A stretch of 64,000 nt of DNA from Rhodothermales bacterium (lineage in GTDB: Bacteria; Bacteroidota; Rhodothermia; Rhodothermales; VXPQ01). Shown here piece after piece: positions 7,040 to 56,456 of this stretch; position 1 is the first letter of the stretch; every line of letters begins with the position of its first letter. The stretch is taken from NCBI GenBank assembly GCA_951812335.1, contig OX638293.1:124001-188000 (forward strand), in the 5' to 3' direction. The notes under the pieces are model-generated. The model worked only from the letters and a program-made list of their open reading frames with translations. It had not been told where the DNA came from and ran no database searches. A program made the position numbers and the translations under genes.

Positions 7040-7425
7040 GGCGCCCTTCCGGAACAGCGATAAAATGGATGTTTATGGGGTTTCGCACATGCTTTTGCGC
7101 TGGATAAAGCCGTGGCGAGCCACGTAAAAATAACTTAGGACCATCAAGAAAACACGGGGACATTCCTGCGCTCTGAAACACCGGAGCCGACACGAAATCA
7201 CTATTTGGGGATACTCTGATCAAAACCACTTCGCCCGGCACTTCACGTTCGTGCGTAAAGGATATCATAATGGCATCGTCGGAATTAGCGGGAAACGCTG
7301 CGGATCAGGAGCAGTGCGGGCGTGAAGCGCCCTTCGGGAGGCTGCGAGAAGTACGCTGGCTGCGTCATTCCTCATTATGCAGGGCCTGCCACACTGCTTC
7401 GTCATTCCTTGCCGACGCACCCCTC
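7040..7425. other. trkA-trkH intergenic region
   Basis: 386 bp without a convincing gene. About 7209-7425 is the larger part of a full-length inverted-end repeat. The remaining 7040-7208 would hold the trkH leader. It contains a short perfect inverted repeat, CGTGGCGAGCCACG at 7111-7124, about 72 bp upstream of the trkH start; no T-run follows it on either strand. Open frames here are low-quality translations of the repeat. Confidence 0.6.
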
Positions 7426-7462
7426 TCAGCCTCTGAGCCTTGCGGACTTAATCAGAGTATCC
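7209..7462 (-). mobile_element. Full-length inverted-end repeat (254 bp), MITE/REP-like
   Basis: In reverse orientation relative to the copy at 51622. It is bounded by GGATACTCTGATCAAAA on the left and TTAATCAGAGTATCC on the right. The interior aligns along its whole length to the copies at 35247-35503 and 51622-51875, with roughly four of five bases identical by eye. The hairpin-2 arms are 7238-7247 and 7321-7330 (CGTGAAGCGC); hairpin 1 lies between about 7340 and 7430. There is no reading frame for a transposase. The terminal 37 bp overlap the 3-prime end of trkA. Flanks read TTTGG before and TTTGC after, a possible short target duplication. Confidence 0.85.
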
Positions 7463-8811
7463 TTTGCGGAAAATTTCCGCTCGATATCGTCAATGCGAGA
7501 AGGCATGACGAACACGATAGCCCGATCCCCGGCGGCTATATGCGTATCTCCAGTGGCAATGCATGCTTCGCTGTTATGCAACACGGCGCCGATGAGCGCC
7601 CCAGGTAACAGTTGCAACTCCCTGAGAGGCTTTCCGGATATCCACGACCGGGGTTTGGCCTCGATTTCGATGATCTGGGCATCCAAACCATAAATGGTAG
7701 CCACGCTCCGTACATGCGTTCCGCGCAGATACCGGTGAATCTCCCGGGATACGGCCAATTTTTTACTGACGGCCGCATCCAGGCCGATACTCTGACTGAT
7801 CGGGATATACGTATTCTTGGAAAGCAACGCCACCGTCTTCCTGACGCCAAGATGTTTGGCCATAAGGCAGGTGACCAGATTCGATTCTTCGTCGTCCGTC
7901 ACCGCCACAAAGGCATCCATCTCGCCCAGCCCTTCCTGAACCAGTAAATCGATATCGGTGGCGGCGCCGTGGATGACGAGCACATGCTGCAGCATCTCCG
8001 CCAGTTTCGCTGCCCGTTCTCTGTTTGGCTCAATAAGTTTCACGGCCTTGTTCTTTTCGCATCCGAATTGGGAAGCGACACTCACACCCACTGCGGTCCC
8101 GCCAAGAATCATGATGTGATTTGCCCGGGTTTCCGCTTTGCCCATCATAGCAGATATATATCCCATGTATTTCGGCAAGGCAAGCACGAAAACCTGGTCG
8201 CCTTGCCGGAGCGTATCGCTACCGCCGGGAATAATCGTTCGGGCACCCCGGCTAATACCCATCACGCGAAACCGCACATGGCTATGCGCCGCCGCCACTT
8301 CCTGGAGTGTTTTACCCGCGACGGGAGCATCGGGATCGATCCGGAGGCCCATCAACTGCAACCGGCCATCGGCGAAATCGAGAATGTCGGTGGCGCTGGC
8401 GCGGCGCACCAGCCACACAACCTCGTTGGCGGCGCTTTCTTCCGGATGAATGACAAGATCAATCCCAAAATCGCTCGTCTTGAGCACAGATTGGGCGCGA
8501 GTAATTTCATCGGACCGAACGCGGGCAATGGTCGTCGATACACCGAGTCGGTCCGCCAGCATACAGGCAATGATATTCACTTCGTCCACAGGCGTTACCG
8601 CTATCAGCATATTCGCCCTGGCTATACCCGCCTCTTCAAGTACGTCCGAGGACGTACCATTGCCGACAATGGCCATCGCATCGAGTTTTTCATGGACCTG
8701 CCGGATGGCGTCGGCATCCTGGTCGATAACCACGACGTCATGCTCCTCGCACGACAGCATACGAGCCACATCGTACCCCACTTCACCTGCTCCTACGACA
8801 ATAATGCGCAA
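7426..8811 (-). CDS. trkA: Trk system potassium uptake protein TrkA
   Basis: Cytoplasmic regulatory subunit of Trk potassium uptake, 461 aa. It consists of two tandem RCK halves, each with a nucleotide-binding RCK_N and an RCK_C domain: GAGEVGYDVARM at residues 7-18 opens the first, and ILGGTAVGVSVA near 235 opens the second. The best start is TTG at 8811 (MRIIVVGAGEVG); no ATG exists upstream in frame before a stop at 8986-8988. The last residues (KDTLIKSARLRG) and the TGA are encoded inside an inverted-end repeat, so the native C-terminus was probably altered by the insertion. Its partner trkH lies downstream. Confidence 0.95.
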   Translation of the reverse strand: MRIIVVGAGEVGYDVARMLSCEEHDVVVIDQDADAIRQVHEKLDAMAIVGNGTSSDVLEEAGIARANMLIAVTPVDEVNIIACMLADRLGVSTTIARVRSDEITRAQSVLKTSDFGIDLVIHPEESAANEVVWLVRRASATDILDFADGRLQLMGLRIDPDAPVAGKTLQEVAAAHSHVRFRVMGISRGARTIIPGGSDTLRQGDQVFVLALPKYMGYISAMMGKAETRANHIMILGGTAVGVSVASQFGCEKNKAVKLIEPNRERAAKLAEMLQHVLVIHGAATDIDLLVQEGLGEMDAFVAVTDDEESNLVTCLMAKHLGVRKTVALLSKNTYIPISQSIGLDAAVSKKLAVSREIHRYLRGTHVRSVATIYGLDAQIIEIEAKPRSWISGKPLRELQLLPGALIGAVLHNSEACIATGDTHIAAGDRAIVFVMPSRIDDIERKFSAKDTLIKSARLRG

Positions 8812-35179: not shown

Positions 35180-35617
35180 GATCCAGACGATTGATTACTA
35201 TGCATAACCCATTGGACATCCCGGATTCCGGAACCTCATCCGGTGCAGGATACTCTGATTAAGTCCGCAAAGTTCAGGGGCTGAAAGGGGTGCGCTGGCA
35301 AGGAATGACGAAGCAATGCGGCAGGCCCCCACATAATGAGGAATGACGCAGCTAGCGTGCCCCTCTCAGCCTACCGAAGGGCGCTTCACGCCTGCGATGC
35401 TCCGAATCCGTAGTGTTTCTCGCTACTTTCAACGATGCAATTACAATATCTTTTACGCACGAACGCGGAGCGCTGATCAAAGTGGACTTAATCAGAGTGT
35501 CCTGCAGGTATTATGCGCAGAAGCCCGACTTGCTCCCGAAACCCCGTATAATAATGCGGCACACCCGCTAACGCGGTTACTCGCCCCCTCCCTTTCATCG
35601 TTCACTTTCACACGGAT
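35180..35617. other. Divergent fcl-manC intergenic region
   Basis: 438 bp without a gene. 35247-35503 is a full-length inverted-end repeat. 35504-35617 would contain the manC promoter and leader; no clear -33/-7 pair could be assigned by eye. Open frames across this stretch are translations of the repeat. Confidence 0.6.
35247..35503 (+). mobile_element. Full-length inverted-end repeat (257 bp)
   Basis: Left end AGGATACTCTGATTAAGTCC; right end GGACTTAATCAGAGTGTCCT. In this copy the inverted ends therefore match over about 20 bp with one change. The interior matches the copies at 7209 and 51622. Hairpin 1 (AGGGGTGCGCTGGC pairing with GCTAGCGTGCCCCT, partly by G-T pairs) spans about 35282-35365. 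The hairpin-2 arms are 35381-35390 and 35464-35473, with one wobble and one mismatch. Flanked by TGC/GC sequence on both sides. No coding capacity. Confidence 0.85.
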
Positions 35618-43650: not shown

Positions 43651-45153
43651 ATGAAACGGTTAAGCGACTTCGCCGACGCGCATCTTCGCATATTCGATCG
43701 GCCCGCCCCGCCCGCACCGGATGAAATAACAAGCGTACACCTCATCGGGATTTGCGGGACCGGCATGGGATCCCTTGCCGGACTCCTCCAGGACGCAGGG
43801 TACGCCGTGCAGGGATCCGACGAGCGCTATTACCCGCCCATGAGCACGCGGATTGCCGAGGCGGGCATTACCATGCTCGAAGGGTACGATGCAAAGCATC
43901 TGGATCCGCCGCCGGACCTGGTTATCGCAGGCAACGCCTGCACGCCGACCCATCCGGAAGCATCGTACGCCAGAGAGCAGGGCCTCGCCCAGTTGTCCCT
44001 GCCCGAAGGCATTGCGCACTTCTTCCTGAACGACCGCAAGCCGCTGGTTATCGCCGGCACGCACGGCAAAACGACCAGCACCGGCATGCTTGTCCACATC
44101 CTGCAGAGCGCCGGGATGGACCCGGGGTTTCTCGTAGGCGGATTGCCCGCAAACGGCGGGGCCTCGTGCGGCGTCGGCGCCGGTCGGCATTTTGTCGTCG
44201 AGGGCGACGAATACGACAGCGCCTATTTCGACAAGCGTCCGAAGATGATGCACTACCGGCCCGCCAGCGCCGCCGTCACGTCGCTGGAGTTCGATCATGC
44301 GGACATCTACGACACCTGGGAAGAGTATCGCGAGGCATTTCGGGCATTCGCCGGTCTTGTCGACCCGGACGGACTTCTTGTATTGAACGGAAACGATCCC
44401 GAAGTACGGGCGCTTGCAGACCATACCCGGGCCCGCGTAGCCTGTATCGGCTTTGCAAACGAGGAAATCGCCGCCTCGGATGTTCGCCCCGCCCCCGGCG
44501 GCCAGCGTTTTACGCTGCGGGCGCATGGCCGGGAACAGACGGAGGTTTTTCTGCCCATGAGCGGGCGGCATAACCTGCTAAATGCGCTGGGCGTCTGTGC
44601 GATCGCACTGGACGAGGGCGTTACGCCCGCACAGATCGCGGAGGGATTCGCCTCCTTTTCGGGAATGAAGCGCCGGCAGGAAGTGCTCGGCGAGGCAAAC
44701 GGCGTCCTTGTAGTGGACGACTTTGCCCACCATCCCACGGCAGTAAGCGAAACGGTCCGCGCAATCGCCGAACGATGGCCCGAGCGACGCATCGTGGCCG
44801 TTTTCGAGCCGCGTTCCAACTCAAGCCGGCGGAAGGTCTTCGAAGAACCGTACGGACACGCCTTCGACCGGGCGGACGCCGCGTTCATCAGCGCGCCCCC
44901 TGTACGCCACAACGACAGGGAAGGCGATCTGCTGGATGCGGAACGCGTCGGCGATATGCTCGAAGCCCGCGGCGTCTCTGCAACCATCCGGCCCGATGCG
45001 GAGCGCCTCCTGCCCCCGCTTCTGGACACGCTGCGCCCCGGGGATGTGGCGCTGATCATGAGCAACGGCAGCTTCGACGGACTCCTTACCCGCCTGATCG
45101 CAGCGCTCAGAAAGCGCGAACCGGCAGCAGCGAAGCCGGATGATGCAGCGTAA
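43651..45153 (+). CDS. mpl: UDP-N-acetylmuramate:L-Ala-gamma-D-Glu-mDAP ligase
   Basis: 500-aa Mur-ligase-family enzyme that recycles murein tripeptide onto UDP-MurNAc. The N-terminal SVHLIGICGTGMGSLAGLLQ, the ATP P-loop AGTHGKTTSTGMLVH and VEGDEYDSAYFDKRPKMMHY are diagnostic for Mpl rather than MurC. HNLLNALGVCAIAL follows, and DDFAHHPTAVSETVRAI with EPRSNSSRRKVF closes the C-terminal domain. Implies meso-DAP peptidoglycan and recycling. It starts at ATG 43651, 70 bp after the RND pump. The stop at 45153 is 3 bp from an inverted-end repeat derivative. Confidence 0.95.
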   Translation: MKRLSDFADAHLRIFDRPAPPAPDEITSVHLIGICGTGMGSLAGLLQDAGYAVQGSDERYYPPMSTRIAEAGITMLEGYDAKHLDPPPDLVIAGNACTPTHPEASYAREQGLAQLSLPEGIAHFFLNDRKPLVIAGTHGKTTSTGMLVHILQSAGMDPGFLVGGLPANGGASCGVGAGRHFVVEGDEYDSAYFDKRPKMMHYRPASAAVTSLEFDHADIYDTWEEYREAFRAFAGLVDPDGLLVLNGNDPEVRALADHTRARVACIGFANEEIAASDVRPAPGGQRFTLRAHGREQTEVFLPMSGRHNLLNALGVCAIALDEGVTPAQIAEGFASFSGMKRRQEVLGEANGVLVVDDFAHHPTAVSETVRAIAERWPERRIVAVFEPRSNSSRRKVFEEPYGHAFDRADAAFISAPPVRHNDREGDLLDAERVGDMLEARGVSATIRPDAERLLPPLLDTLRPGDVALIMSNGSFDGLLTRLIAALRKREPAAAKPDDAA

Positions 45154-46902: not shown

Positions 46903-48345
46903 TTACCGTTCTGCGGACCGTGACCAGCCCTGCATCCGATCTTTCAGATAGTCCGCCGCATTGTTTTTCGGAATGCGCTCCTGAATCATGGAATCCCGAT
47001 CCCGGACGGTAACGGCGCCTGTTTCCATCGTTTCGCCATCGACCGTGATGCAGAACGGCGTACCGGCTTCGTCCATCCGCCGGTACCGTTTCCCGATGGA
47101 TCCGCTATCGTCATAGAATGCATTGAAATGCCCGCGCAGATCGGCGGCGAGGGCCTGGGCCGTTTCCGGCATCCCGTCCCGTTTGACCAGCGGGAAAACA
47201 GCGGCCTTGACAGGAGCCACTTCGGGATGAAACTTCATGACGATGCGTTCTTCGCCTTCGACGCGCTCCTCTTCGTACGCCTCGCACAACAACATGAGAA
47301 TGGTGCGGTCCAGACCGGCCGAGGTTTCGACGACATACGGAATGTATTTCTCCTTCCGATACGGATCGAAATACTCCATCTTCTTGCCGGAGAATTCCTG
47401 GTGGCGTTTCAGGTCGAAGTCGGTGCGCGAGTGAATGCCTTCGATTTCCTGCCATCCCATAGGGAAGGCGTACTGCACATCGAAGGCTGCATCGGCATAG
47501 TGCGCCAACTTCTCGTGTTCGTGCCAGCGCAAATGCTCCGGGCGGATACCGTTGTCTATGTGCCACTGCATTCGTTTGGCCCGCCACGCCTCGAAATGCT
47601 CCATTTGGGTGCCGGGACAGACGAAATACTGCATCTCCATCTGCTCGAATTCGCGCATCCGGAAAATGAACCGTCGGGCGACGATCTCGTTGCGAAAGGC
47701 CTTTCCGATTTGCGCAATGCCGAACGGCAGCTGCTGCCGGGCCGTTTCTTGCGCAAGACGAAAGTTCACGAAGATACCCTGGGCCGTTTCGGGGCGAAGG
47801 TAGATTTTGGTCTCGTCGTCGACGACCGCGCCGGCATGCGTTTCGAACATCAGGTTGAATTGCCGCACCTCGGTCCAATCGAAAGCCCCGGAGTCGGGCC
47901 CCCGGATCTCCTCGTCGAGGATGATCCGATGGAGTTCCTTCGGCATATCGTCGCTATGCAGCGCCGCAACAAAGCGGGTCCGTAACGCACGGGCCTGTTC
48001 CTCCTTGCCGGAAGCCTCCATTTTCTCGATGCGCCGCTCGATCAGGTCGTCGGCCCGGTACCGGCGCTTCGACGCCTTGTCGTCGATCATCGGATCGTGG
48101 AAAGCGTCTACATGCCCGGACGCTTTCCAGACGGTCGGATGCATAAGAATAGCCGCGTCGAGCCCTTCGATGTTTTCGTGCCGATACACCATCTCCCGCC
48201 ACCACCGCTCCTTGACGTTGCGCTTCAACTCGACGCCCAAGGGGCCGTAATCGTACGTGGCGCCGAGGCCGCCGTAAATATCCGAGGACGGGAAGATGAA
48301 TCCGCGTCGCTTGGAAAGGGAAACGATCTTTTCCAGAAGGTCCAT
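46903..48345 (-). CDS. glyS: Glycyl-tRNA synthetase (dimeric type)
   Basis: 480-aa class II synthetase charging tRNA-Gly, the single-chain alpha2 type rather than the alpha/beta GlyQ-GlyS type. It starts at ATG 48345 (MDLLEKIVSLSKRRGFIFPS); longer in-frame upstream sequence is not conserved. Motif 1 region GATYDYGPLGVELKRNVKER, motif 2 FRNEIVARRFIFRMREFEQM and motif 3 TSAGLDRTILMLLCEAYEEE are all present. IRGPDSGAFDWTEVRQFNLM is typical of this subfamily. The C-terminal anticodon-binding domain is intact. radC lies 127 bp upstream on the same strand. Confidence 0.96.
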   Translation of the reverse strand: MDLLEKIVSLSKRRGFIFPSSDIYGGLGATYDYGPLGVELKRNVKERWWREMVYRHENIEGLDAAILMHPTVWKASGHVDAFHDPMIDDKASKRRYRADDLIERRIEKMEASGKEEQARALRTRFVAALHSDDMPKELHRIILDEEIRGPDSGAFDWTEVRQFNLMFETHAGAVVDDETKIYLRPETAQGIFVNFRLAQETARQQLPFGIAQIGKAFRNEIVARRFIFRMREFEQMEMQYFVCPGTQMEHFEAWRAKRMQWHIDNGIRPEHLRWHEHEKLAHYADAAFDVQYAFPMGWQEIEGIHSRTDFDLKRHQEFSGKKMEYFDPYRKEKYIPYVVETSAGLDRTILMLLCEAYEEERVEGEERIVMKFHPEVAPVKAAVFPLVKRDGMPETAQALAADLRGHFNAFYDDSGSIGKRYRRMDEAGTPFCITVDGETMETGAVTVRDRDSMIQERIPKNNAADYLKDRMQGWSRSAER

Positions 48346-48472
48346 GGGAGGGCGAACGAATGCGGGAGAAACGCCCGGACAACGCCGGAGTGCGGGCCTC
48401 ATACCGGGGAAGGCGCCGGTATGATTCCGTAAGCGGTCTAAAACCGCAGGAGGGTTTGCCGGACGGCAATGT

Positions 48473-49222
48473 CTACAGCAATTGACGTTCCGCCATGGAC
48501 GTGTATCCGTTTCCCGCAACGATAAGATGGTCGTGAATGGGAATACCCATCATCTCGCCGGCGGCCACCAGTTGCCGGGTAACCCTGATATCTTCCTGGC
48601 TGGGTTCCGGATTACCTGACGGATGGTTGTGTACGCAGATCACCGAAGCGGCATTCTCGAGGACAGCTTGCTGGAAAACGGCCCTCGGTTCGACAATGCT
48701 GGCCGCAAGCCCACCCTCGCTCACCCGAACGTCTCCTATAATGACGTTCGCCGTATTGAGCAAGACAAGGTCGAACACCTCCGTGCGCATATCCCGCAAT
48801 CTCGGGATGTAGACAGCTGCCACATCGTCGGGCGAACACACCTGAATTTCTTTGCGATCGGTTTGCTGTGCTTCGACGCGCCGGCCAATCTCGAACGCGG
48901 CCGCGAGTTGAGCCGCCTTGGCCGGACCGATGCCTGCTACGCGCATCGTCTCCCGTACATCGCGGCGGGAAAGGTCACGCAGCGCGCCAAACGTATGCAG
49001 CAGCGTACGCCCAAGCTGAATGGCCGACACGGAGCCGGAACGAGTGTGCGTACCGGATCGAAATAGCACCCCGATCAACTCGGCATCCGACAATGCATCG
49101 GCACACCCGCTCAAAACGCGCTCACTCGGGCGTTCCGCTTCCGCCCAATCGCGAATGGGAACCCGGTATCGAATTTCCGGATCCGAAACGGGATCGATCC
49201 GTGCAAGGGGATTCAGCGCCAT
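48473..49222 (-). CDS. radC: RadC-family JAB/MPN protein
   Basis: 249-aa protein with an N-terminal UPF0758 helix-hairpin-helix region (VAGIGPAKAAQLAAAFEIGR) and a C-terminal JAMM metalloprotease-like domain. The metal site is complete: VICVHNHPSGNPEPSQEDIR gives the H-x-H and downstream Ser/Asp, and the upstream glutamate lies near VSEGGLAASIVEP. The old repair assignment is unsupported in general; the biochemical role of RadC is unknown. Length is normal. On the same strand as glyS and the short rho. Confidence 0.93.
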   Translation of the reverse strand: MALNPLARIDPVSDPEIRYRVPIRDWAEAERPSERVLSGCADALSDAELIGVLFRSGTHTRSGSVSAIQLGRTLLHTFGALRDLSRRDVRETMRVAGIGPAKAAQLAAAFEIGRRVEAQQTDRKEIQVCSPDDVAAVYIPRLRDMRTEVFDLVLLNTANVIIGDVRVSEGGLAASIVEPRAVFQQAVLENAASVICVHNHPSGNPEPSQEDIRVTRQLVAAGEMMGIPIHDHLIVAGNGYTSMAERQLL

Positions 49223-49315
49223 ACAAAGAAGCCGATCGGGAAGGGTTCCATAGATATTCTATAGACCCCGAAAGGCGGCAAATATAACCCCGGTGCGCTA
49301 TTTCGTACGTAGGGC

Positions 49316-50437
49316 TTATCCGTACCCCTCGCTCGGAACCAGTTCGTTGAGCAGGTGCGCGTTGGTTGGGGACTGTTGCAGATGACGAAGCAGTGCTTGC
49401 ATCGCGTCGATAGGGGGCCGCGAATTGAGCGCCCGAAACAGCCGATGATGCTGATCTATTGCATCCCCAATGAGTCGTTCTTCGTTGCGCGTACCGCTTT
49501 TTCGCAGGTTGATGGCCGGAAAAATGCGTTTGTCGGCCATCTCCCGATCCAGCACGATCTCCGAATTACCCGTTCCCTTGAATTCTTCGAAAATGACGTC
49601 GTCCATACGGCTGCCGGTCTCGATAAGCGCCGTAGCAACGATAGTGAGTGACCCACCTCCTTCGATGTTGCGCGCAGAGCCAAATATCCGCCGGGGGATC
49701 TGCAGTGCCTTCGCGTCCAGTCCGCCGGAAAGCGTGCGCCCGCTTCCGGACTGGTACAAGTTGAACGTTCGGCCCAATCTCGTCAACGAATCGAGCAGCA
49801 GCACCACATCCTTTCCCATTTCCACGAGGCGCCGCGCATATTCGAGCGCCAGGGTGGAGACACGCACATGGTTGTCTTCCTCCCTGTCGTTCGAGGAAGC
49901 GAACACCTGTGCCGCCGTTGCCCGCTTGAAGTCGGTCACTTCCTCGGGGCGCTCGTCGACAAGCAGCGCCACCAACGCCACATCCGGATGATTCTGCGTA
50001 ATAGCGGTGGCCATCCTCTTCAGCAGGATCGTCTTTCCCGTTCGGGGCGGCGCCACGATCAAGGCGCGTTGTCCCTTTCCAATGGGGGACACGAGATCCA
50101 CGACGCGCATGGAAATGTCCCCAGGGGCCGTGACCAATTCCAGTTTCTCGTCGGGGTAAATGGTTTGCCCGGCGTCGAAATCGGAAACCTCCGCCCAGGC
50201 TTCGGGCGGCATGCCCATCACGCTGTCGATTCGGGCTACCTGCAAAGCGCCCTTGCGCCCTGGCCGCAGGGTACCTGTCATGAGGCACCCGTCCCGAAGG
50301 TGAAATTTTCGCACCAGGGGCGGCGACGTAAAGGGGTCGCTGTTTCCTTTCGGCAAATCCGGGCGAAAGGTCCGGATAAAACCGAATTTTTTATCCCCGA
50401 TCATCTCGAGGAGACCTTCAAAGCGTTTTTCCGACAT
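49316..50437 (-). CDS. rho: Short Rho transcription termination factor
   Basis: 373-aa ATP-dependent RNA helicase of the Rho family. The cold-shock-like RNA-binding domain starts at the very N-terminus (GLLEMIGDKKFGFIRTFRPD, 8-27), so the N-terminal helical Rho_N domain is absent. Motor motifs: P-loop APPRTGKT (129-136, Arg-Thr in place of the usual Lys-Ala), LLVDERPEEVTDFKR, and Walker B VVLLLDSLTRLGRTFN. GGSLTIVATALIETGSRMDD, and EEFKGTGNSEIVLDREMADK with the R-loop, follow. It is shorter than the 410-700 aa usual in Bacteroidota, so it may be a second Rho paralogue. Confidence 0.88.
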   Translation of the reverse strand: MSEKRFEGLLEMIGDKKFGFIRTFRPDLPKGNSDPFTSPPLVRKFHLRDGCLMTGTLRPGRKGALQVARIDSVMGMPPEAWAEVSDFDAGQTIYPDEKLELVTAPGDISMRVVDLVSPIGKGQRALIVAPPRTGKTILLKRMATAITQNHPDVALVALLVDERPEEVTDFKRATAAQVFASSNDREEDNHVRVSTLALEYARRLVEMGKDVVLLLDSLTRLGRTFNLYQSGSGRTLSGGLDAKALQIPRRIFGSARNIEGGGSLTIVATALIETGSRMDDVIFEEFKGTGNSEIVLDREMADKRIFPAINLRKSGTRNEERLIGDAIDQHHRLFRALNSRPPIDAMQALLRHLQQSPTNAHLLNELVPSEGYG

Positions 50438-50702
50438 AAAATTCAGTCAGTTGGCAAGAGAAGCGTACCAAACGCATTGCATGCGACCGCCCTTCCCGGC
50501 AACAATAATTCGATGAAGGGAGGGAACGCGCGCGACGCGCTTCGTACATTTAATACCGCATACGCCATGCGGCGGGAAACCGATAGATGAAAGGCTCGGC
50601 GAATAATTCGACGAACGATCGCAACCTGGTTTCCAGGGCGTGCGGCCCGAAAAACGGAAAACCCGGAGAAAGATGGGATGTACATAACTCTAACATTATA
50701 GC

Positions 50703-51542
50703 ATGACCATGAGTTCCGAATCGTCATCGCAAGCGCAAAACGGCGCCGCGGCCCCCGGATCGTACGGAGCGGAAATGCTGCGCCGCACGATAACGGGAAA
50801 CGCATCGACCCCTCCCGTTCTCCTTCTCCACGGATGGGGAAGCAGCGCCGCTAATATGGCCCCGATAGCCCAGGCGCTTGCCTCGGATTACCGGGTCATG
50901 AGCATTGATCTCCCCGGGCACGGCCATTCGCCGGCGCCCACCGAGGTCATAGGGGTACCGGAGCATGCCGCACTTGTCAAGGAGATCATTGACACGCACA
51001 TCGGGAAACCGGTTACGATCGTAGGGCACTCCAACGGAGGTCGCATTGCGCTCTATATGGCTTCGCACCCGCTCTATAAACCACTCATCCGTCATCTGGT
51101 GCTCGTCAGTCCCTCGGGAGTCACGCCAAACCGATCCGTCGGGTACTATGCCCGGCGGACCATAGCAAATATGCTCAAGGCCCCCTTCCGACTCGCACCC
51201 GAGCCGCTTCGCGCCTACGGACTCGACTGGCTAAGGCATTCGCTCGCGTGGCGTGCGCTTGGGTCGTCGGATTACCGCGCCGTCGAAGGCGTCATGCGCA
51301 GCGTCTTTGTTCGCATGGTGACCTATCGTCTCGATGAGCGTGTGCAGGAAATCGATGTTCCCGTACTGCTCTTTCGAGGCGATCGGGATACGGCCATATC
51401 GCAACGGCAGATGGAATATCTTGTGCACACCATCCCCGATGCGGGCCTTGTGGTGCTCGAAAATGCGGGACACTACGGCTACATGGACGATTTCGCCACG
51501 TTCATTGCCGCCACCCGGCACTTTCTGAAAACAACCTGCTGA
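50703..51542 (+). CDS. Alpha/beta hydrolase
   Basis: 279-aa cytoplasmic alpha/beta-fold hydrolase. The oxyanion motif HGWGSS is at 43-48 and the nucleophile elbow GHSNGG at 108-113 (S110). The acid is in RGDRDTAIS and the histidine in NAGHYGYMDD, so the triad looks complete. There is no signal peptide. The gene is read toward a membrane-anchored MurF-like ligase 340 bp downstream, with a repeat in between. Substrate unknown: ester or amide in cell-wall precursor metabolism is a context-based guess. Confidence 0.82.
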   Translation: MTMSSESSSQAQNGAAAPGSYGAEMLRRTITGNASTPPVLLLHGWGSSAANMAPIAQALASDYRVMSIDLPGHGHSPAPTEVIGVPEHAALVKEIIDTHIGKPVTIVGHSNGGRIALYMASHPLYKPLIRHLVLVSPSGVTPNRSVGYYARRTIANMLKAPFRLAPEPLRAYGLDWLRHSLAWRALGSSDYRAVEGVMRSVFVRMVTYRLDERVQEIDVPVLLFRGDRDTAISQRQMEYLVHTIPDAGLVVLENAGHYGYMDDFATFIAATRHFLKTTC

Positions 51543-51882
51543 AAAACAACTCGTTTACAAACAGCCTGCCGAAAACCGACTTGCTGCAAAACACCTGACG
51601 CCGCACCGGGTTCCCTCTTATGGATACTCTGATTAAGTCCACAAAGCTCAGAGGCTTGCGAGGGGCGGGCTGGCAAGGAATGACGAAGCAGTGTGGCAGG
51701 CCCCACACAATGAGGAATGATGCAGCCAGCTTGCCCCTCGCAGTCTCCCGAAGGGCGCGTCACGTCCGCGATGCCGGAAACCTCAGTGTTTCCCGTTGAT
51801 TTCAACGATGGAATCCTAACATCCTTTGCGTACGAACGTGACGCGCTGAGCGAAGCGGTTTTGATCAGAGTATCCATAATTT
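51543..51882. other. Intergenic region filled by a full repeat
   Basis: 340 bp between the hydrolase and MurF-like genes. 51622-51875 is a full-length inverted-end repeat. 51543-51621 contains a run related to the hydrolase 3-prime end (repeated CAAC/GAAAA-rich sequence) and nothing recognisable. Only 7 bp separate the repeat from the MurF-like ATG. Confidence 0.65.
51622..51875 (+). mobile_element. Full-length inverted-end repeat (254 bp), best-structured copy
   Basis: Ends GGATACTCTGATTAAGTCC and TTTTGATCAGAGTATCC; with the flanks the dyad extends to TTAT...ATAA. Hairpin 1: GCGAGGGGC-GG-GCTGGC (51658-51674) pairs with GCCAGC-TT-GCCCCTCGC (51725-51741), with an inner GTGTGG/CCACAC stem (51691-51708). 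Hairpin 2: GCGCGTCACGT (51755-51765) pairs perfectly with ACGTGACGCGC (51836-51846). The copy at 7209 replaces a G:C pair here by T:A on both arms, preserving pairing. No coding capacity; resembles a MITE or large REP element. Confidence 0.9.
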
Positions 51883-53505
51883 ATGTTCATCATCCCGTTT
51901 CTTGCTATTGTCACGACCCTGTTTGCGGGATGGCGCGCAGCGCGGCGGCTGCGCTATTTTCTGCATGCCTTCCAGCTGCACGGTTACAAGTCCGACGAAT
52001 TCCGTGGCTGGGTCGCCCATCGTTTCCGCACGCTCGTATTCCGTCTCTCACACAAGCTTGCGCTCGCGGAGTTGGTTCTCGCAGCTGTCGCCGCCGCTTT
52101 TCTTGACCCGTTTCCCGTCGCCGCTGTCGCACTACCCCTCTGGGCCATTACCTTCGCTTCCTCGCGCCGCTATCGGAGCGACCGCGAGAAAAAACCTCTG
52201 AAGTACACCAACCGGATGCAACGCCTGCTGGCGACCGCTGCCCTGCTGGCGATCCTCCCCATTGCAGGAGGATTGTGCATCTGGCTCCGGGGCGATCTCG
52301 CCGCCCTGATCTGGTATCTGGGGGGCTTATTTCTGGCGGATTTCCTGGCGCCTGCCTGGGTGCTTGTTGCCGCCGCCCTGACGGATCCTGTGGAACGACG
52401 TATTCGGGAGGAGTTCAAGCGGAAGGCCCGCCGCCGACTCGGCCGCCGGTCCGATCTGAAGATCGTTGCCGTGACCGGATCCTACGGGAAAACGAGCACC
52501 AAAACCATCATCGGAGATATTCTTGGGCTACGTTACCAGACCCTGATTACCCCCGGTTCCTACAACACGCCCATGGGGCTTTGCCTCGTCGTCAATAACA
52601 TGCTGCGGGCGGAGCACCAGGTCCTCGTGCTTGAAATGGGTATCCGGCGCCCTGGCGATATGGACGAACTGTGTACTATGGTCCGGCCCGATATCGGCGT
52701 AGTGACGTCGATCGGAATCGCGCATCTGGAAAGCATGGGGACCATCGACCGTATTGCGGACGAGAAAGCCCGTATGATCGCCAGTATGGATGCGGGGGGC
52801 GTAGCTGTTCTCAACATGGACGACGACCGGGTGGTGGCCATGCGAGAGCATACCCGCGGCCGGATATGGCGCATTTCCGCGCAGGGCCGCCCAGACGCCG
52901 ACCTTGCGGCCTTCGACATCCGGTACGACCACCGAGGAACGTCCTTTCTTGTGCGCGACAAGCACGGAACGGAGCAGCGTTTCCGGACCCGGCTTCTCGG
53001 AGCGCACAACGTAACCAACATCCTCCTGGCGCTGGCGGTCGGATGCGAGATGGGGTTGCGCTTGCGCCAGATGACGCACGCCGTGGAGCGAATCGAGCCT
53101 GTTCCGCACCGGCTCCAATTGCGCCGGGAGGGCCCGGTAACCGTCATCGACGACGCCTTCAACGCCAATCCGGTCGGAGCGAGGAACGCCGTGGAGATAC
53201 TCGGAACGTTCCGCTCGGGACGGCGCATCGTCGTGACTCCCGGTATGATTGAACTCGGCGAGCGGCAACACGAAGAAAACCGCTTGCTGGGCGAGCATAT
53301 CGCCGACCATGCGGACCTTGCGCTTCTCGTGGGCCGCAAGCAAACCGCTCCCATCAGGGAGGGACTCCAGGCCAAAAATTTCCCGGCAGAAAATCTGCAC
53401 GTTTTCGATGCTTTGCGGGATGCGCAGGCCTTCCTCTCATCGTTCCTCCGCGAAGGAGATGTCGTGCTCTACGAGAACGATCTGCCGGATCAGTACGACG
53501 AATAG
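51883..53505 (+). CDS. Membrane-anchored MurF-like Mur ligase
   Basis: 540 aa. The first 170 residues hold about four to five hydrophobic helices (MFIIPFLAIVTTLFAG, ALAELVLAAVAAAFLDPFPV and others), not found in standard MurF. From about residue 190 a Mur-ligase centre and C-terminus follow: P-loop VAVTGSYGKTSTK (197-207, G199-K203-T204), VLVLEMGIRRPGDMDELC, GVVTSIGIAHLESMGT, LLGAHNVTNILLALAVG, and VIDDAFNANPVGARNAVEIL (C-terminal DD-x-x-N-A-N motif). This most resembles the D-Ala-D-Ala-adding MurF. The N-terminal UDP-binding domain of MurF is replaced by the membrane part. Leader is the repeat ending 7 bp upstream; no Shine-Dalgarno sequence. Confidence 0.88.
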   Translation: MFIIPFLAIVTTLFAGWRAARRLRYFLHAFQLHGYKSDEFRGWVAHRFRTLVFRLSHKLALAELVLAAVAAAFLDPFPVAAVALPLWAITFASSRRYRSDREKKPLKYTNRMQRLLATAALLAILPIAGGLCIWLRGDLAALIWYLGGLFLADFLAPAWVLVAAALTDPVERRIREEFKRKARRRLGRRSDLKIVAVTGSYGKTSTKTIIGDILGLRYQTLITPGSYNTPMGLCLVVNNMLRAEHQVLVLEMGIRRPGDMDELCTMVRPDIGVVTSIGIAHLESMGTIDRIADEKARMIASMDAGGVAVLNMDDDRVVAMREHTRGRIWRISAQGRPDADLAAFDIRYDHRGTSFLVRDKHGTEQRFRTRLLGAHNVTNILLALAVGCEMGLRLRQMTHAVERIEPVPHRLQLRREGPVTVIDDAFNANPVGARNAVEILGTFRSGRRIVVTPGMIELGERQHEENRLLGEHIADHADLALLVGRKQTAPIREGLQAKNFPAENLHVFDALRDAQAFLSSFLREGDVVLYENDLPDQYDE

Positions 53506-53519
53506 CCGCCGGTATTGCT

Positions 53520-54131
53520 ATGGTTGCGCCGCCCAAGCTCCCTTCATATTGCCTCGAGCATACCCTTCGGCAACAAGGCTACGAACACATTGCCGGCGTA
53601 GACGAAGCGGGACGAGGATGTCTGGCGGGCCCTGTCGTTGCCGCTGCCGTGATTCTTCCTCCCGACACACGCCTTCCGGGCCTGACCGACAGCAAACTTC
53701 TCTCGCGCACCCTGCGCGAAAAGCTTGCCAGGGCTATCCGGGAAAATGCGTCGAGCATCGGCGTCGGCCTGTGTTCGCCCCGGGAAATCGACCGTCTGAA
53801 TATTCTGTGGGCGGCCATGGAGGCCATGCGCCGCGCGATCTTGAATCTTGCTCCCGAACCGGACTATCTGCTGATCGACGGGAACCGGTGTTTCCCCGAT
53901 GCAAAATGGTCCTTCGAAACGATCGTACAGGGCGACCGCCGATGCCGTTCGATTGCGGCGGCGTCCGTTATCGCCAAGGTTGAGCGCGATCGCCTGATGC
54001 ACAGGTTACATGATGACTATCCTGCCTATGCGTGGAAGACGAATGCGGGATATCCTACCAGGAAGCACTATGCGGCGCTTGCCCGGCACGGCCCGACCCC
54101 GCACCACCGCCGTTCGTTCCGGCTGGCATGA
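53520..54131 (+). CDS. rnhB: Ribonuclease HII
   Basis: 203-aa endoribonuclease cleaving RNA in RNA-DNA hybrids, including single ribonucleotides. The active-site motif AGVDEAGRGCLAGP (25-38) supplies D28 and E29; further acidic residues lie in YLLIDGNRCF and near AKVERDRLM. TDSKLLSRTLREKLARAI and SIAAASVIAKVERDRLM are family signatures. ATG at 53520, 14 bp after the MurF-like stop. A TTG-type start is not needed. Intact and of normal length. Confidence 0.95.
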   Translation: MVAPPKLPSYCLEHTLRQQGYEHIAGVDEAGRGCLAGPVVAAAVILPPDTRLPGLTDSKLLSRTLREKLARAIRENASSIGVGLCSPREIDRLNILWAAMEAMRRAILNLAPEPDYLLIDGNRCFPDAKWSFETIVQGDRRCRSIAAASVIAKVERDRLMHRLHDDYPAYAWKTNAGYPTRKHYAALARHGPTPHHRRSFRLA

Positions 54132-54197
54132 AAGCATGCTTATGCGGTATGCCGGAGAAGGAATGGCGTTTCCGAAACGGGACGATCGAGCCTGCTC

Positions 54198-54746
54198 TTA
54201 CGTTCCGCTTTTGTTTTCCAGCGCCTCCATAGCCATTGAGACGGCGCTCTCCAAAGACCGCTTCCCGACATCCAGCACGATGTCGGCCTGTTCGTAGAAC
54301 GATTCCCGTTGCGCCAGCAATGCCGCGATACGTTTACGCAAGGAGGCTCCGGACAGAGGACGGCCTTCCTCATGCAGCATGGGACGAGAGGCGGCCCGTT
54401 TTTCAAGTCGATCCGCCAGATGCCGGGGAGTCATGCGGAGATAGATCAGGCGCCCCTGCGCTTTGGTGAAATGCAGATTGTCCTCCCGGGTGACCGCACC
54501 GCCTCCAAGAGCAATAACCATCCGATCGGCGTGCGATACCGCGCGTAAACGCTCGGTTTCGAGACGTCGGAACGCTTCTTCTCCCCGGTTGGCGAAGATT
54601 GCCTGCACCGTGCCGCCCACGGCGCGCTCGATGTCCCGATCCAGATCGACGAAGTCATATCCAAGCCGGTCCGCAAGGCGGGGTCCGAGGGTGCTCTTGC
54701 CGCTCCCCATAAAACCCGTCAGGTAGATGCGCGTAGGAACGGTCAT
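54198..54746 (-). CDS. aroK: Shikimate kinase
   Basis: 182-aa kinase phosphorylating shikimate in aromatic amino acid synthesis. The P-loop GFMGSGKST is at 10-18, the shikimate-binding DLDRDIE follows near 36-42 and FRRLETE near 60. GGGAV near 78 and RPMLHE (ATP lid, Arg) complete it. It starts at ATG 54746; the open frame runs on upstream but that portion overlaps truA on the other strand. No other aro genes are nearby. Divergent from truA across about 195 bp that contains nothing recognisable. Confidence 0.94.
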   Translation of the reverse strand: MTVPTRIYLTGFMGSGKSTLGPRLADRLGYDFVDLDRDIERAVGGTVQAIFANRGEEAFRRLETERLRAVSHADRMVIALGGGAVTREDNLHFTKAQGRLIYLRMTPRHLADRLEKRAASRPMLHEEGRPLSGASLRKRIAALLAQRESFYEQADIVLDVGKRSLESAVSMAMEALENKSGT

Positions 54747-54941
54747 TGGAGAAATTCCGGGACTATATCCCGCTGTGTGCAGATTGTCGGTGGGGAAACG
54801 CTCCCCGGCGCAATTACATGGAGTACCTACCGGTAGCGGCAGCGAGACCGAACGACCCCTGAGGCAAATACCCGGCCTACTTGCCGGACGACCCATTCGC
54901 CGCGTGCAAAATACGATATCCGTCGATGCGACGCGCACACT

Positions 54942-55691
54942 ATGCCTGTATACCGCATGACGATAGAATACGACGGCGCGCCTTTTTCCGGATGGCAAAT
55001 CCAGCCGGGCAGGCCGACGGTGCAAGCCGCGCTCGAAGAGGCGCTTGCAAAAGCCTTGCGCACCCCGACAGGCATTGTCGGGGCAGGACGCACCGACGCC
55101 GGCGTACACGCCCGGGGGCAGGTCGCACACTTTCTTGCCGATGCTCTCCCAAGGAATTCCACGATACATATTCGCCGCCTTCTTGCTTCCCTGAACGGTC
55201 TTCTCCCCGACGCTATAGCTGTCCGCACACTCGCCGTTGCTCCCGATGGCTTTCATGCCCGCTACGATGCCCGCCTCCGGCGCTACCGCTACTACATCGC
55301 AACCGGGTTTCGTGCCCTCGATCGACATATGCGCGTACATATCCGACCGGAGCCGGATCTCGCGCTCATGCAGGCCGCTGCCGATACGATCCTCGGCGAA
55401 CACGATTTCGATACGTTCTGCCGTACGCAATCGGAGACGAAGAACCGTGTTTGCACCCTGTACGAGGCGCGCTGGACGGACGAATCGGGCGACGGCGACG
55501 CGTATTTAGAAATAACGGGAAACAGGTTTCTGCACGGCATGGTGCGCGCTATTGCGGGAACCCTGCTGGAGATAGGGCACGGCAAACGTCCTGTGGACGA
55601 TATGGCCCGCCTCCTGGCCAGGAAAGATCGCCGCGCCGCCGGGCCCTCGGCGCCTGCCCATGGGCTTGTGCTCGAAGAAGTGGTGTATTAA
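54942..55691 (+). CDS. truA: tRNA pseudouridine synthase A
   Basis: 249-aa enzyme forming pseudouridine at tRNA positions 38-40. The catalytic aspartate D52 is in GAGRTDAGVHARGQ (47-60). N-terminal MPVYRMTIEYDGAPFSGWQI, FHARYDARLRRYRYYI and ITGNRFLHGMVRAIAGTLLE near the end are diagnostic. ATG 54942. Its TAA (55689-55691) shares its last base with the start of a repeat half-site (55691-55708). Confidence 0.95.
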   Translation: MPVYRMTIEYDGAPFSGWQIQPGRPTVQAALEEALAKALRTPTGIVGAGRTDAGVHARGQVAHFLADALPRNSTIHIRRLLASLNGLLPDAIAVRTLAVAPDGFHARYDARLRRYRYYIATGFRALDRHMRVHIRPEPDLALMQAAADTILGEHDFDTFCRTQSETKNRVCTLYEARWTDESGDGDAYLEITGNRFLHGMVRAIAGTLLEIGHGKRPVDDMARLLARKDRRAAGPSAPAHGLVLEEVVY

Positions 55692-55708
55692 GGATACTCT
55701 GATTAAGA
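55691..55708 (+). repeat. Solo end of the inverted-end repeat
   Basis: AGGATACTCTGATTAAG matches the left terminus of the full copies exactly. Only this end is present. It overlaps the last base of the truA stop codon. Confidence 0.75.
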
Positions 55709-55738
55709 GGATGCGCAGGGCGAAGACGAGCACAGGAA

Positions 55739-55951
55739 ATGCCGGTAGTGTATATTACCGACGATATGGACATCCAGAAACTGCTAAGGTGGATTGCGGT
55801 CGTCATCGTACTGATCGTGGCAGGTGGCGTGCTCAGCGTCATTCTCAAGGTAGGCGCCGCTATTGGCCGGATTGCGCTGCCGGTGTTGCTTGTCCTTCTC
55901 GTTATCGCCATCGTTCTCCGGTTCATCGACGCCTTTCGACACCGGCGTTGA
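55739..55951 (+). CDS. Small two-helix membrane protein
   Basis: 70-aa hydrophobic protein. A short polar N-terminus is followed by two predicted membrane helices (LLRWIAVVIVLIVAGGVLSV and IALPVLLVLLVIAIVLRFID) and a basic tail RHRR. The start is ATG 55739, or ATG 55766 (MDIQKLLRW), which omits nine residues. It lies between truA and tadA on the same strand, with 28 bp to the tadA start. Family not recognised and function unknown, but codon composition and the hydrophobic pattern make it a likely real gene. Confidence 0.65.
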   Translation: MPVVYITDDMDIQKLLRWIAVVIVLIVAGGVLSVILKVGAAIGRIALPVLLVLLVIAIVLRFIDAFRHRR

Positions 55952-55965
55952 GCTTGCCGGTTCTA

Positions 55966-55992
55966 ATGAGCCTGTCCGTATGAGCCTGTCCG
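55966..55992 (+). repeat. 14-bp tandem duplication over the tadA start codon
   Basis: ATGAGCCTGTCCGT at 55966-55979 is followed directly by ATGAGCCTGTCCG at 55980-55992. The first copy leads to a stop after five codons (ATG AGC CTG TCC GTA TGA), while the second is the tadA start. The first ATG could therefore act as a minimal upstream reading frame overlapping the true start. Confidence 0.6.
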
Positions 55993-56456
55993 ACTTCCTG
56001 GAACCGGATAGAAAGTGGATGCAACTCGCTCTCAAGGAAGCTGAGGCGGCCTGGGACGAGGATGAGGTGCCTGTCGGCGCAGTCGTAGTGCATGCCGGCG
56101 AGATTGTCGGGCGAGGCCGCAACATGGTCGAGCGTCTGCAGGACCCCACCGCCCACGCAGAAATGATCGCCCTTACGGCAGCGTGCGAAACCCTCGGGGC
56201 GAAAATCCTTCGTGGATGCACGCTCTACGTAACCCTTGAACCCTGCCCCATGTGCGCCGGCGCACTCGTGTGGGCGCGCATCGACCGGCTCGCGTTCGGA
56301 GCATTCGACGAAAAAGCCGGTAGCGCATCGACGCTGTACGACATCCCGAGAGATCGGCGACTCAATCACCAGGTGGAGGTCGTATCGGGCGTCGAGGGAG
56401 AACGCGCCGCCGAACTCATGCAGGCTTTCTTTCGGAAGCGCCGTATCGCCCTGTAG
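55980..56456 (+). CDS. tadA: tRNA-specific adenosine deaminase
   Basis: 158-aa zinc deaminase converting A34 to inosine in tRNA-Arg. The active site is complete: HAEM (59-62; zinc ligand H59 and catalytic E61) and PCPMCAGAL (88-96; C89 and C92). VPVGAVVVHAGEIVGRGRN and the LTAACETLGAK stretch fit TadA. Start ATG 55980; the open frame upstream overlaps the small membrane gene and is not conserved. A 14-bp duplication creates a second ATG 14 bases before it. The YpdA-like gene follows after 25 bp. Confidence 0.94.
   Translation: MSLSDFLEPDRKWMQLALKEAEAAWDEDEVPVGAVVVHAGEIVGRGRNMVERLQDPTAHAEMIALTAACETLGAKILRGCTLYVTLEPCPMCAGALVWARIDRLAFGAFDEKAGSASTLYDIPRDRRLNHQVEVVSGVEGERAAELMQAFFRKRRIAL

Follow-up and report, generated by a model that had tools for sequence, protein, structure and literature searches.

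Gene pair encoding a serine hydrolase and a membrane-anchored Mur ligase

The window analyzed here is a 64,000-nucleotide stretch of the genome of a Rhodothermales bacterium (GCA_951812335.1, contig OX638293.1, positions 124,001 to 188,000). At positions 50703-53505 of the window we confirmed two genes on the plus strand, an alpha/beta serine hydrolase and, downstream of it, a Mur ligase that carries membrane helices where canonical MurF binds UDP-MurNAc. We refer to the ligase as TM-MurF. The features of the two genes are listed below in window coordinates.

50703..51542, plus strand: alpha/beta serine hydrolase, 279 amino acids (Pfam Abhydrolase_1, E 2.7e-29)
51030..51032, plus strand: predicted nucleophile Ser110 in GHSNGG, assigned by alignment to the fold class
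51387-51389 and 51471-51473, plus strand: Asp229 and His257, predicted triad partners of Ser110, assigned in the same way
51883..53505, plus strand: membrane MurF (TM-MurF), 540 amino acids (Pfam, NCBIfam, AlphaFold2, fold neighbors, tree)
51883..52443, plus strand: membrane domain (residues 1-187) that substitutes for the UDP-MurNAc-binding N-domain (hydropathy and AlphaFold2 helices)
52189..52224, plus strand: loop motif KKPLxxTxRxxR, residues 103-114, predicted to be cytosolic (79/79 sequences across phyla)
52477..52497, plus strand: ATP-binding P-loop GSYGKTS, residues 199-205 (alignment A3)
53149..53172, plus strand: MurF-type motif DDAFNANP, residues 423-430 (alignment A3 and column comparison with canonical MurF)
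53236..53259, plus strand: TPGMIELG, residues 452-459, with clade-specific TPG (37/37) versus canonical LGD (31-33 of 33)
53473..53481, plus strand: END, residues 531-533, versus canonical KGS, within the C-domain, to which the incoming substrate binds

The initial annotation had described a MurF-like, membrane-anchored ligase, with four to five helices replacing the N-domain, beside a serine hydrolase with a complete triad, and each part of this description holds. Pfam detects Mur_ligase_M at residues 197-386 of the ligase (8.2e-42) and Mur_ligase_C at residues 409-529 (3.8e-14), with no match to the Mur N-domain PF01225 in the 540 amino acids. The NCBIfam murF model (TIGR01143) aligns only from model position 69 of 418, and the score of 241.9 bits is below the curated cut-off of 288.6. 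The closest solved structures, both by sequence and by fold, are MurF (4qf5, 4cvm). The AlphaFold2 model of the ligase, made with 79 sequences, has a mean predicted local distance difference test (pLDDT) score of 94.0 and places five hydrophobic segments before the Mur domain as predicted helices (3-32, 55-73, 76-90, 110-136, and 139-187, with a break at 155).

Alignment A3 contains the window sequence and 78 of the 80 best loci of the species-wide scan described below (L094 and L112 are left out). Over these 79 sequences from several phyla, Q31, Y35, K103, T109, R111, and R114 of the membrane domain are invariant, the last four within the loop motif. Judging by the order of the helices, the ligase domain would be cytosolic if the N-terminus is outside, and this orientation would put all six residues on the cytosolic side.

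The P-loop, K295 (which we take to be the carbamoylated lysine), and the DDxxNxNP motif are all kept, so the most secure part of the functional prediction is that the enzyme uses ATP to couple a unit to a carboxyl group. TM ligases retain 28 of 44 conserved canonical MurF columns. Several columns of the C-domain are replaced throughout the clade: LGD by TPG, a canonical H by N, and KGS by END, with E531 and D533 in 37/37 TM ligases and K and S in 33/33 canonical MurFs. We do not count TM-MurF as a canonical MurF, because the defining N-domain was tested for and is absent.

The hydrolase was modeled with a pLDDT of 93.2, and inspection of the sequence by eye showed no signal peptide. S110, D229, and H257 are invariant in the 63 hydrolases of alignment A4, which consists of the window sequence and 62 of the 66 hydrolases found at ligase loci (without L108, L112, L131, and L140). 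G187, S188, D190, and M198 in the cap are also kept, and R199 and N207 nearly always. Its fold neighbors are esterases of a generic kind and C-C hydrolases, with a best Z of 28.4 (212 residues, root-mean-square deviation 2.2), and they give no hint of the substrate.

TM-MurF in place of canonical MurF

The host genome is a single contig of 2,686,407 bases (96.7% complete). A profile search found six Mur-type ligases, TM-MurF and five others that were named MurE, MurD, MurC, Mpl, and FolC from gene order, length, and family models. Searches with PF08245 and TIGR01143 found no second murF, and the dcw cluster, with names read from the sequences, runs ftsI-murE-mraY-murD-ftsW-murG-murC-ftsQ-ftsA-ftsZ without one. 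A conventional murF elsewhere in the genome, which the initial annotation had suggested looking for, was not found. With no other MurF in the genome, TM-MurF is most likely the organism's MurF, not an accessory tailoring enzyme.

Among 40 genomes of the order, 13 have a full-length MurF over the cut-off, 25 have the TM type, none has both, and two have neither (G010 and G034, 77% and 89% complete). This complementary distribution holds within the order; elsewhere, full-length MurF is also present in 12 of the 30 TM genomes examined, a set that includes three from the window's own class. Nine of the 30 have an additional MurF over the cut-off, 18 have only the TM type, and the other three are gut Bacteroidales with a full-length MurF under the cut-off. 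In these three (L114, L139, and L145), the TM ligase co-occurs with a long MurF, an open reading frame of 827-860 amino acids, and may be part of a second, perhaps conditional, system.

The gene order in a Poribacteria metagenome-assembled genome (MAG; L092, 2531-10567) is a 600-amino-acid protein taken for a penicillin-binding protein, then MurE, hydrolase, TM-MurF, a Ddl of the type described below as Ddl-B, MraY, and MurD. The module thus fills the slot between murE and mraY, the expected place of murF, and this is the most direct sign that it does the work of MurF. PMC11915815 describes murE and murF as lying in tandem in most species.

These results bear on whether the hydrolase and ligase could be an accessory pair that adds or removes a residue on lipid II beside an ordinary MurF. 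Lipid-linked tailoring by a Mur-type enzyme exists (MurT/GatD), and the 12 genomes that also have a full-length MurF would suit such a role. We consider it very improbable, given that the host genome has no other MurF, that the TM and canonical types are mutually exclusive in the order, that Ddl is exchanged together with the ligase, and that the Poribacteria module sits in the murF slot of the dcw cluster.

Distribution and phylogeny of the ligase

In a search of 392 genomes of the phylum, the TM type was found in 30/45 genomes of the order, 58/59 of the rest of the class (two of the 58 as split matches), and 0/288 others; G154 gave no TM match. A species-wide scan, covering 84,980 species with a single genome apiece, yielded at least 581 relatives. 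The best 80, which were kept, come from Rhodothermales, Balneolia, Bacillota, the Poribacteria MAG, gut Bacteroidales MAGs, and a MAG labeled Thiomargarita. In Bacilli, MurF is over the cut-off in 145/151 genomes, and five of the remaining six have the TM type (G418, G451, G463, G474, and G483); the sixth, G514, does not.

We built a tree from the central and C-terminal domains of 37 TM ligases (11 of 24 from the order and 26 of 80 others), 33 canonical MurFs, and one MurE. All 37 TM ligases form one clade (Shimodaira-Hasegawa-like approximate likelihood ratio test, SH-aLRT, 100), apart from the canonical MurFs. The 13 canonical MurFs of the same order form a clade of their own.

Open frames of 389-400 amino acids in some Bacilli also encode MurF-like ligases that match the TM-MurF profile only from residue 194 (G527:C13:124610-125608, G538:C22:258875-259888, and G460:C3:57658-58680). 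These apparently represent another Mur family without either N-domain.

The hydrolase is a constant partner

The hydrolase gene lies upstream of the ligase and on the same strand in 24/25 ligase loci of the order, with the 25th ending at a contig edge, so the pairing is not due to chance. It overlaps the ligase gene by 4 bases in five of these loci and lies 1-3 kb away in three. At the best 80 loci of the species-wide scan it was found 66 times.

The partnership extends to genomes in which the genes are apart. With profile A2, a strong ortholog (at least 322 bits) was found in 38/39 genomes of TM families (the exception is G437) and in 0/21 of canonical families (at most 80 bits). The hydrolase is present in 20/20 Balneolia (247-292 bits), usually away from the ligase, in 10/10 TM-only genomes of other groups (187-212 bits), and in 0/8 other Bacteroidota (at most 70 bits). 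With profile A4 it was found beside the ligase in 4/4 TM Bacilli (323-368 bits) and in 0/24 canonical Bacilli (at most 125.5 bits); G514 has neither TM-MurF nor a strong hydrolase. Pooled, 72/73 TM genomes and 0/53 canonical-only genomes have the hydrolase.

The initial annotation had named conservation of the pair in other genomes as a check, and would have seen its reading refuted by a genome with no other murF together with a lack of conserved linkage between the two genes. The absence of another murF is what we found; a lack of linkage is contradicted by the 24/25 loci and by the pooled counts. An unrelated housekeeping gene that happens to be a neighbor could explain why the hydrolase is unlinked in 18/20 Balneolia and 1-3 kb off in three loci of the order, but a strong ortholog that accompanies the TM type whether linked or not makes this explanation hardly credible.

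A variant D-Ala-D-Ala ligase is the third partner

The finding is larger than the pair: it is a co-inherited three-enzyme replacement of Ddl and MurF, and its Ddl partner lay beyond the view of the initial annotation. In the order, eight genomes with canonical MurF have a canonical Ddl (335-358 bits), whose gene adjoins MurF in 7/8, and nine TM genomes carry another type of Ddl (Ddl-B) that is unlinked. In the host genome, Ddl-B is encoded at C1:1179271, elsewhere than the hydrolase-ligase pair; it scores 324.1 bits against the 262 cut-off of NF002528 and passes both Ddl subfamily cut-offs. The gene order in Bacillota is hydrolase-ligase-Ddl. Among TM-only genomes outside the class, Ddl is inside the cluster in 11/12 and apart from the ligase in G422. 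Three genomes with both MurFs have two full-scoring Ddls, one beside each MurF.

The Ddls of the TM type form one clade (SH-aLRT 99) that leaves out the canonical Ddls of the canonical-MurF members of the same order. It consists of 18 operon Ddls (out of 51 of at least 340 amino acids; L277 gave no Ddl, and L270 and L271 were not used) and of unlinked Ddls, nine from Rhodothermales and five from Balneolia. A tree of MurE, MraY, and MurD from 25 genomes indicates that MurF type changes three times in the order, twice on well-supported branches, and at each of the three changes the hydrolase and the Ddl type switch along with it.

Most Ddl-B proteins are 384-430 amino acids long and differ from canonical Ddl at the PGFTxxSMYP loop, which binds the carboxylate of the second D-Ala. 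In a comparison with 16 canonical Ddls (without the two distant Ddls L254 and L259), this second-substrate loop is shortened, with F, T, and P missing in 65/65 Ddl-B. E259 (64/65) and L270 stand in place of G and Y, and a loop is added after DKY. At the C-terminus, Ddl-B is extended by a tail, possibly for docking, that contains a conserved NLL motif (L264, alignment A5) and is absent from canonical Ddls.

One explanation for these changes is a masked donor. Ddl-B would join D-Ala to a second residue in which the carboxyl is absent or blocked (an ester, an amide, or another residue), TM-MurF would add the unit, and the hydrolase would unmask it to leave a normal or a different end. The changes in the partners converge on the donor end: the loop of Ddl-B has lost F, T, and P; E and D of TM-MurF occupy the positions of K and S in canonical MurF; and the hydrolase is of the esterase type and conserves D190 and R199 in its cap. 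Speculatively, a masked donor would account for all three sets of changes at once, and it can be combined with a lipid-linked acceptor. It is nevertheless improbable, as Ddl-B passes the curated D-Ala-D-Ala ligase cut-offs and its added loop may replace the lost contacts. Some TM-type genera are susceptible to vancomycin, which would mean an ordinary D-Ala-D-Ala end. We know of no masked donor of this kind.

Proposed pathway

We think it probable that TM-MurF, the hydrolase, and Ddl-B form a three-enzyme module that replaces Ddl and MurF, most likely acting on a lipid-linked tripeptide. We infer the lipid-linked acceptor because the enzyme has lost the UDP-binding domain, carries invariant polar and basic residues in the membrane domain that takes its place, and resembles MurT in having no N-domain. 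A lipid-linked wall precursor was also the substrate proposed in the initial annotation; it stands as the most economical reading of the lost domain. The accompanying idea that the pair is accessory to an ordinary MurF is not supported.

As reported in PMC6085368, MurT uses lipid I and lipid II and none of the UDP-linked precursors. PMC6113224 places the pyrophosphate of bound UDP substrates at the boundary of the N- and central domains and notes that a collision with the membrane would be likely if an N-domain were present. MurT/GatD resembles the TM-MurF pair in combining a Mur ligase without N-domain with a second enzyme. Unlike TM-MurF, MurT is described as having a short flexible N-terminus, a zinc ribbon, and a glutaminase partner, and as amidating D-Glu on lipid I/II (PMC6085368, PMC6113224). 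TM-MurF has membrane helices and is closer to MurF; its C-domain is Mur_ligase_C, and its neighbors are the hydrolase and, in many relatives, Ddl.

PgsB/CapB is a Mur-type ligase with an N-terminal membrane part, but the closest relatives of TM-MurF are MurF, and no poly-gamma-glutamate synthetase model is among the 25 of 27 NCBIfam matches listed. The account in PMC11915815 has CapB more likely related to FPGS (folylpolyglutamate synthase) than to MurCDEF.

In the proposed pathway, MraY (perhaps MurG too) would first transfer UDP-MurNAc-tripeptide to undecaprenyl phosphate. TM-MurF would then work at the cytosolic face of the membrane, extending the lipid-linked tripeptide with the Ddl-B product, presumably a dipeptide. 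The invariant basic residues of the loop may hold the pyrophosphate, in place of the hold of the N-domain on UDP. The hydrolase may trim, unmask, or proofread the dipeptide or the stem end. We put forward this re-ordering more tentatively than the module itself: the stem would be finished on the lipid carrier by TM-MurF with a variant-Ddl unit processed by the hydrolase, and MraY would act on UDP-MurNAc-tripeptide as the final soluble precursor.

Several observations weigh against this interpretation. The module is not always the sole MurF, as 12/30 TM genomes examined also hold a full-length one, and the hydrolase is not adjacent to the ligase in 18/20 Balneolia genomes. The joint exchange in the order amounts to three changes, two of them well supported, a number that does not permit a sign test. 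Columns conserved in the MurF domain for the incoming substrate carry the clade-specific changes, and the donor may therefore be something other than plain D-Ala-D-Ala. For the related ligase MurE, PMC9434261 describes contacts between the C-terminal domain and the appended amino acid. MraY is unchanged with the switch: between 13 TM and 12 canonical genomes of the order, 1 column of 384 is discriminating (V/I), and the same comparison gave 0/486 in MurE and 0/454 in MurD. This lends no support to a lipid-linked step and is no clear blow to it.

The constancy of MraY, MurE, and MurD would also fit an ordinary MurF that is tethered to the membrane and still converts UDP-MurNAc-tripeptide to the pentapeptide, with the tether serving to channel it to MraY and UDP bound elsewhere. 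The module genes adjoin mraY in one lineage (Poribacteria), and 28/44 canonical MurF columns are kept. A tethered enzyme of this kind appears rather unlikely to us, since the UDP-binding domain is wholly absent from TM ligases and the six invariant, predicted-cytosolic residues of the membrane domain, shared by 79 sequences from several phyla, go beyond the needs of a tether.

Formation of the D-Ala-D-Ala terminus by Ddl and MurF belongs to textbook biochemistry and is a drug target. Both textbook enzymes seem to be absent from a class-level group and from scattered Bacillota, which appear to use a membrane module whose additional hydrolase is constant. With a lipid-linked acceptor, MurF and MraY would not act in the same order in all bacteria. 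The module would explain low-scoring or seemingly missing murF genes in such genomes, and the serine hydrolase is a possible new wall target. Among open-access PMC papers, we found no published description of a membrane MurF or its operon.

Other features of the window

A gene that most resembles Mpl lies at 43651-45153 and scores 359 bits against a curated cut-off of 388.7. Mpl serves in recycling, where it regenerates UDP-MurNAc-tripeptide, which the proposed pathway would have as its final soluble precursor. Rfam gave no match in 48000-56000 of the window. One further feature lies between the hydrolase and ligase genes and is outside the module.

51618..51879, strand not assigned: 262-bp element with terminal inverted repeats

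The element is MITE-like (miniature inverted-repeat transposable element), and this copy is missing from the same site in two genomes of the same genus. Other members of the family are at 7205-7466 (reversed) and 35244-35502. The full-length copies are 81-82% alike, and the window also contains several partial copies or single ends. The end motif of the family, TTAxGGATACTCTGATyAA, has 10 matches in the window versus 0.02 expected by chance.

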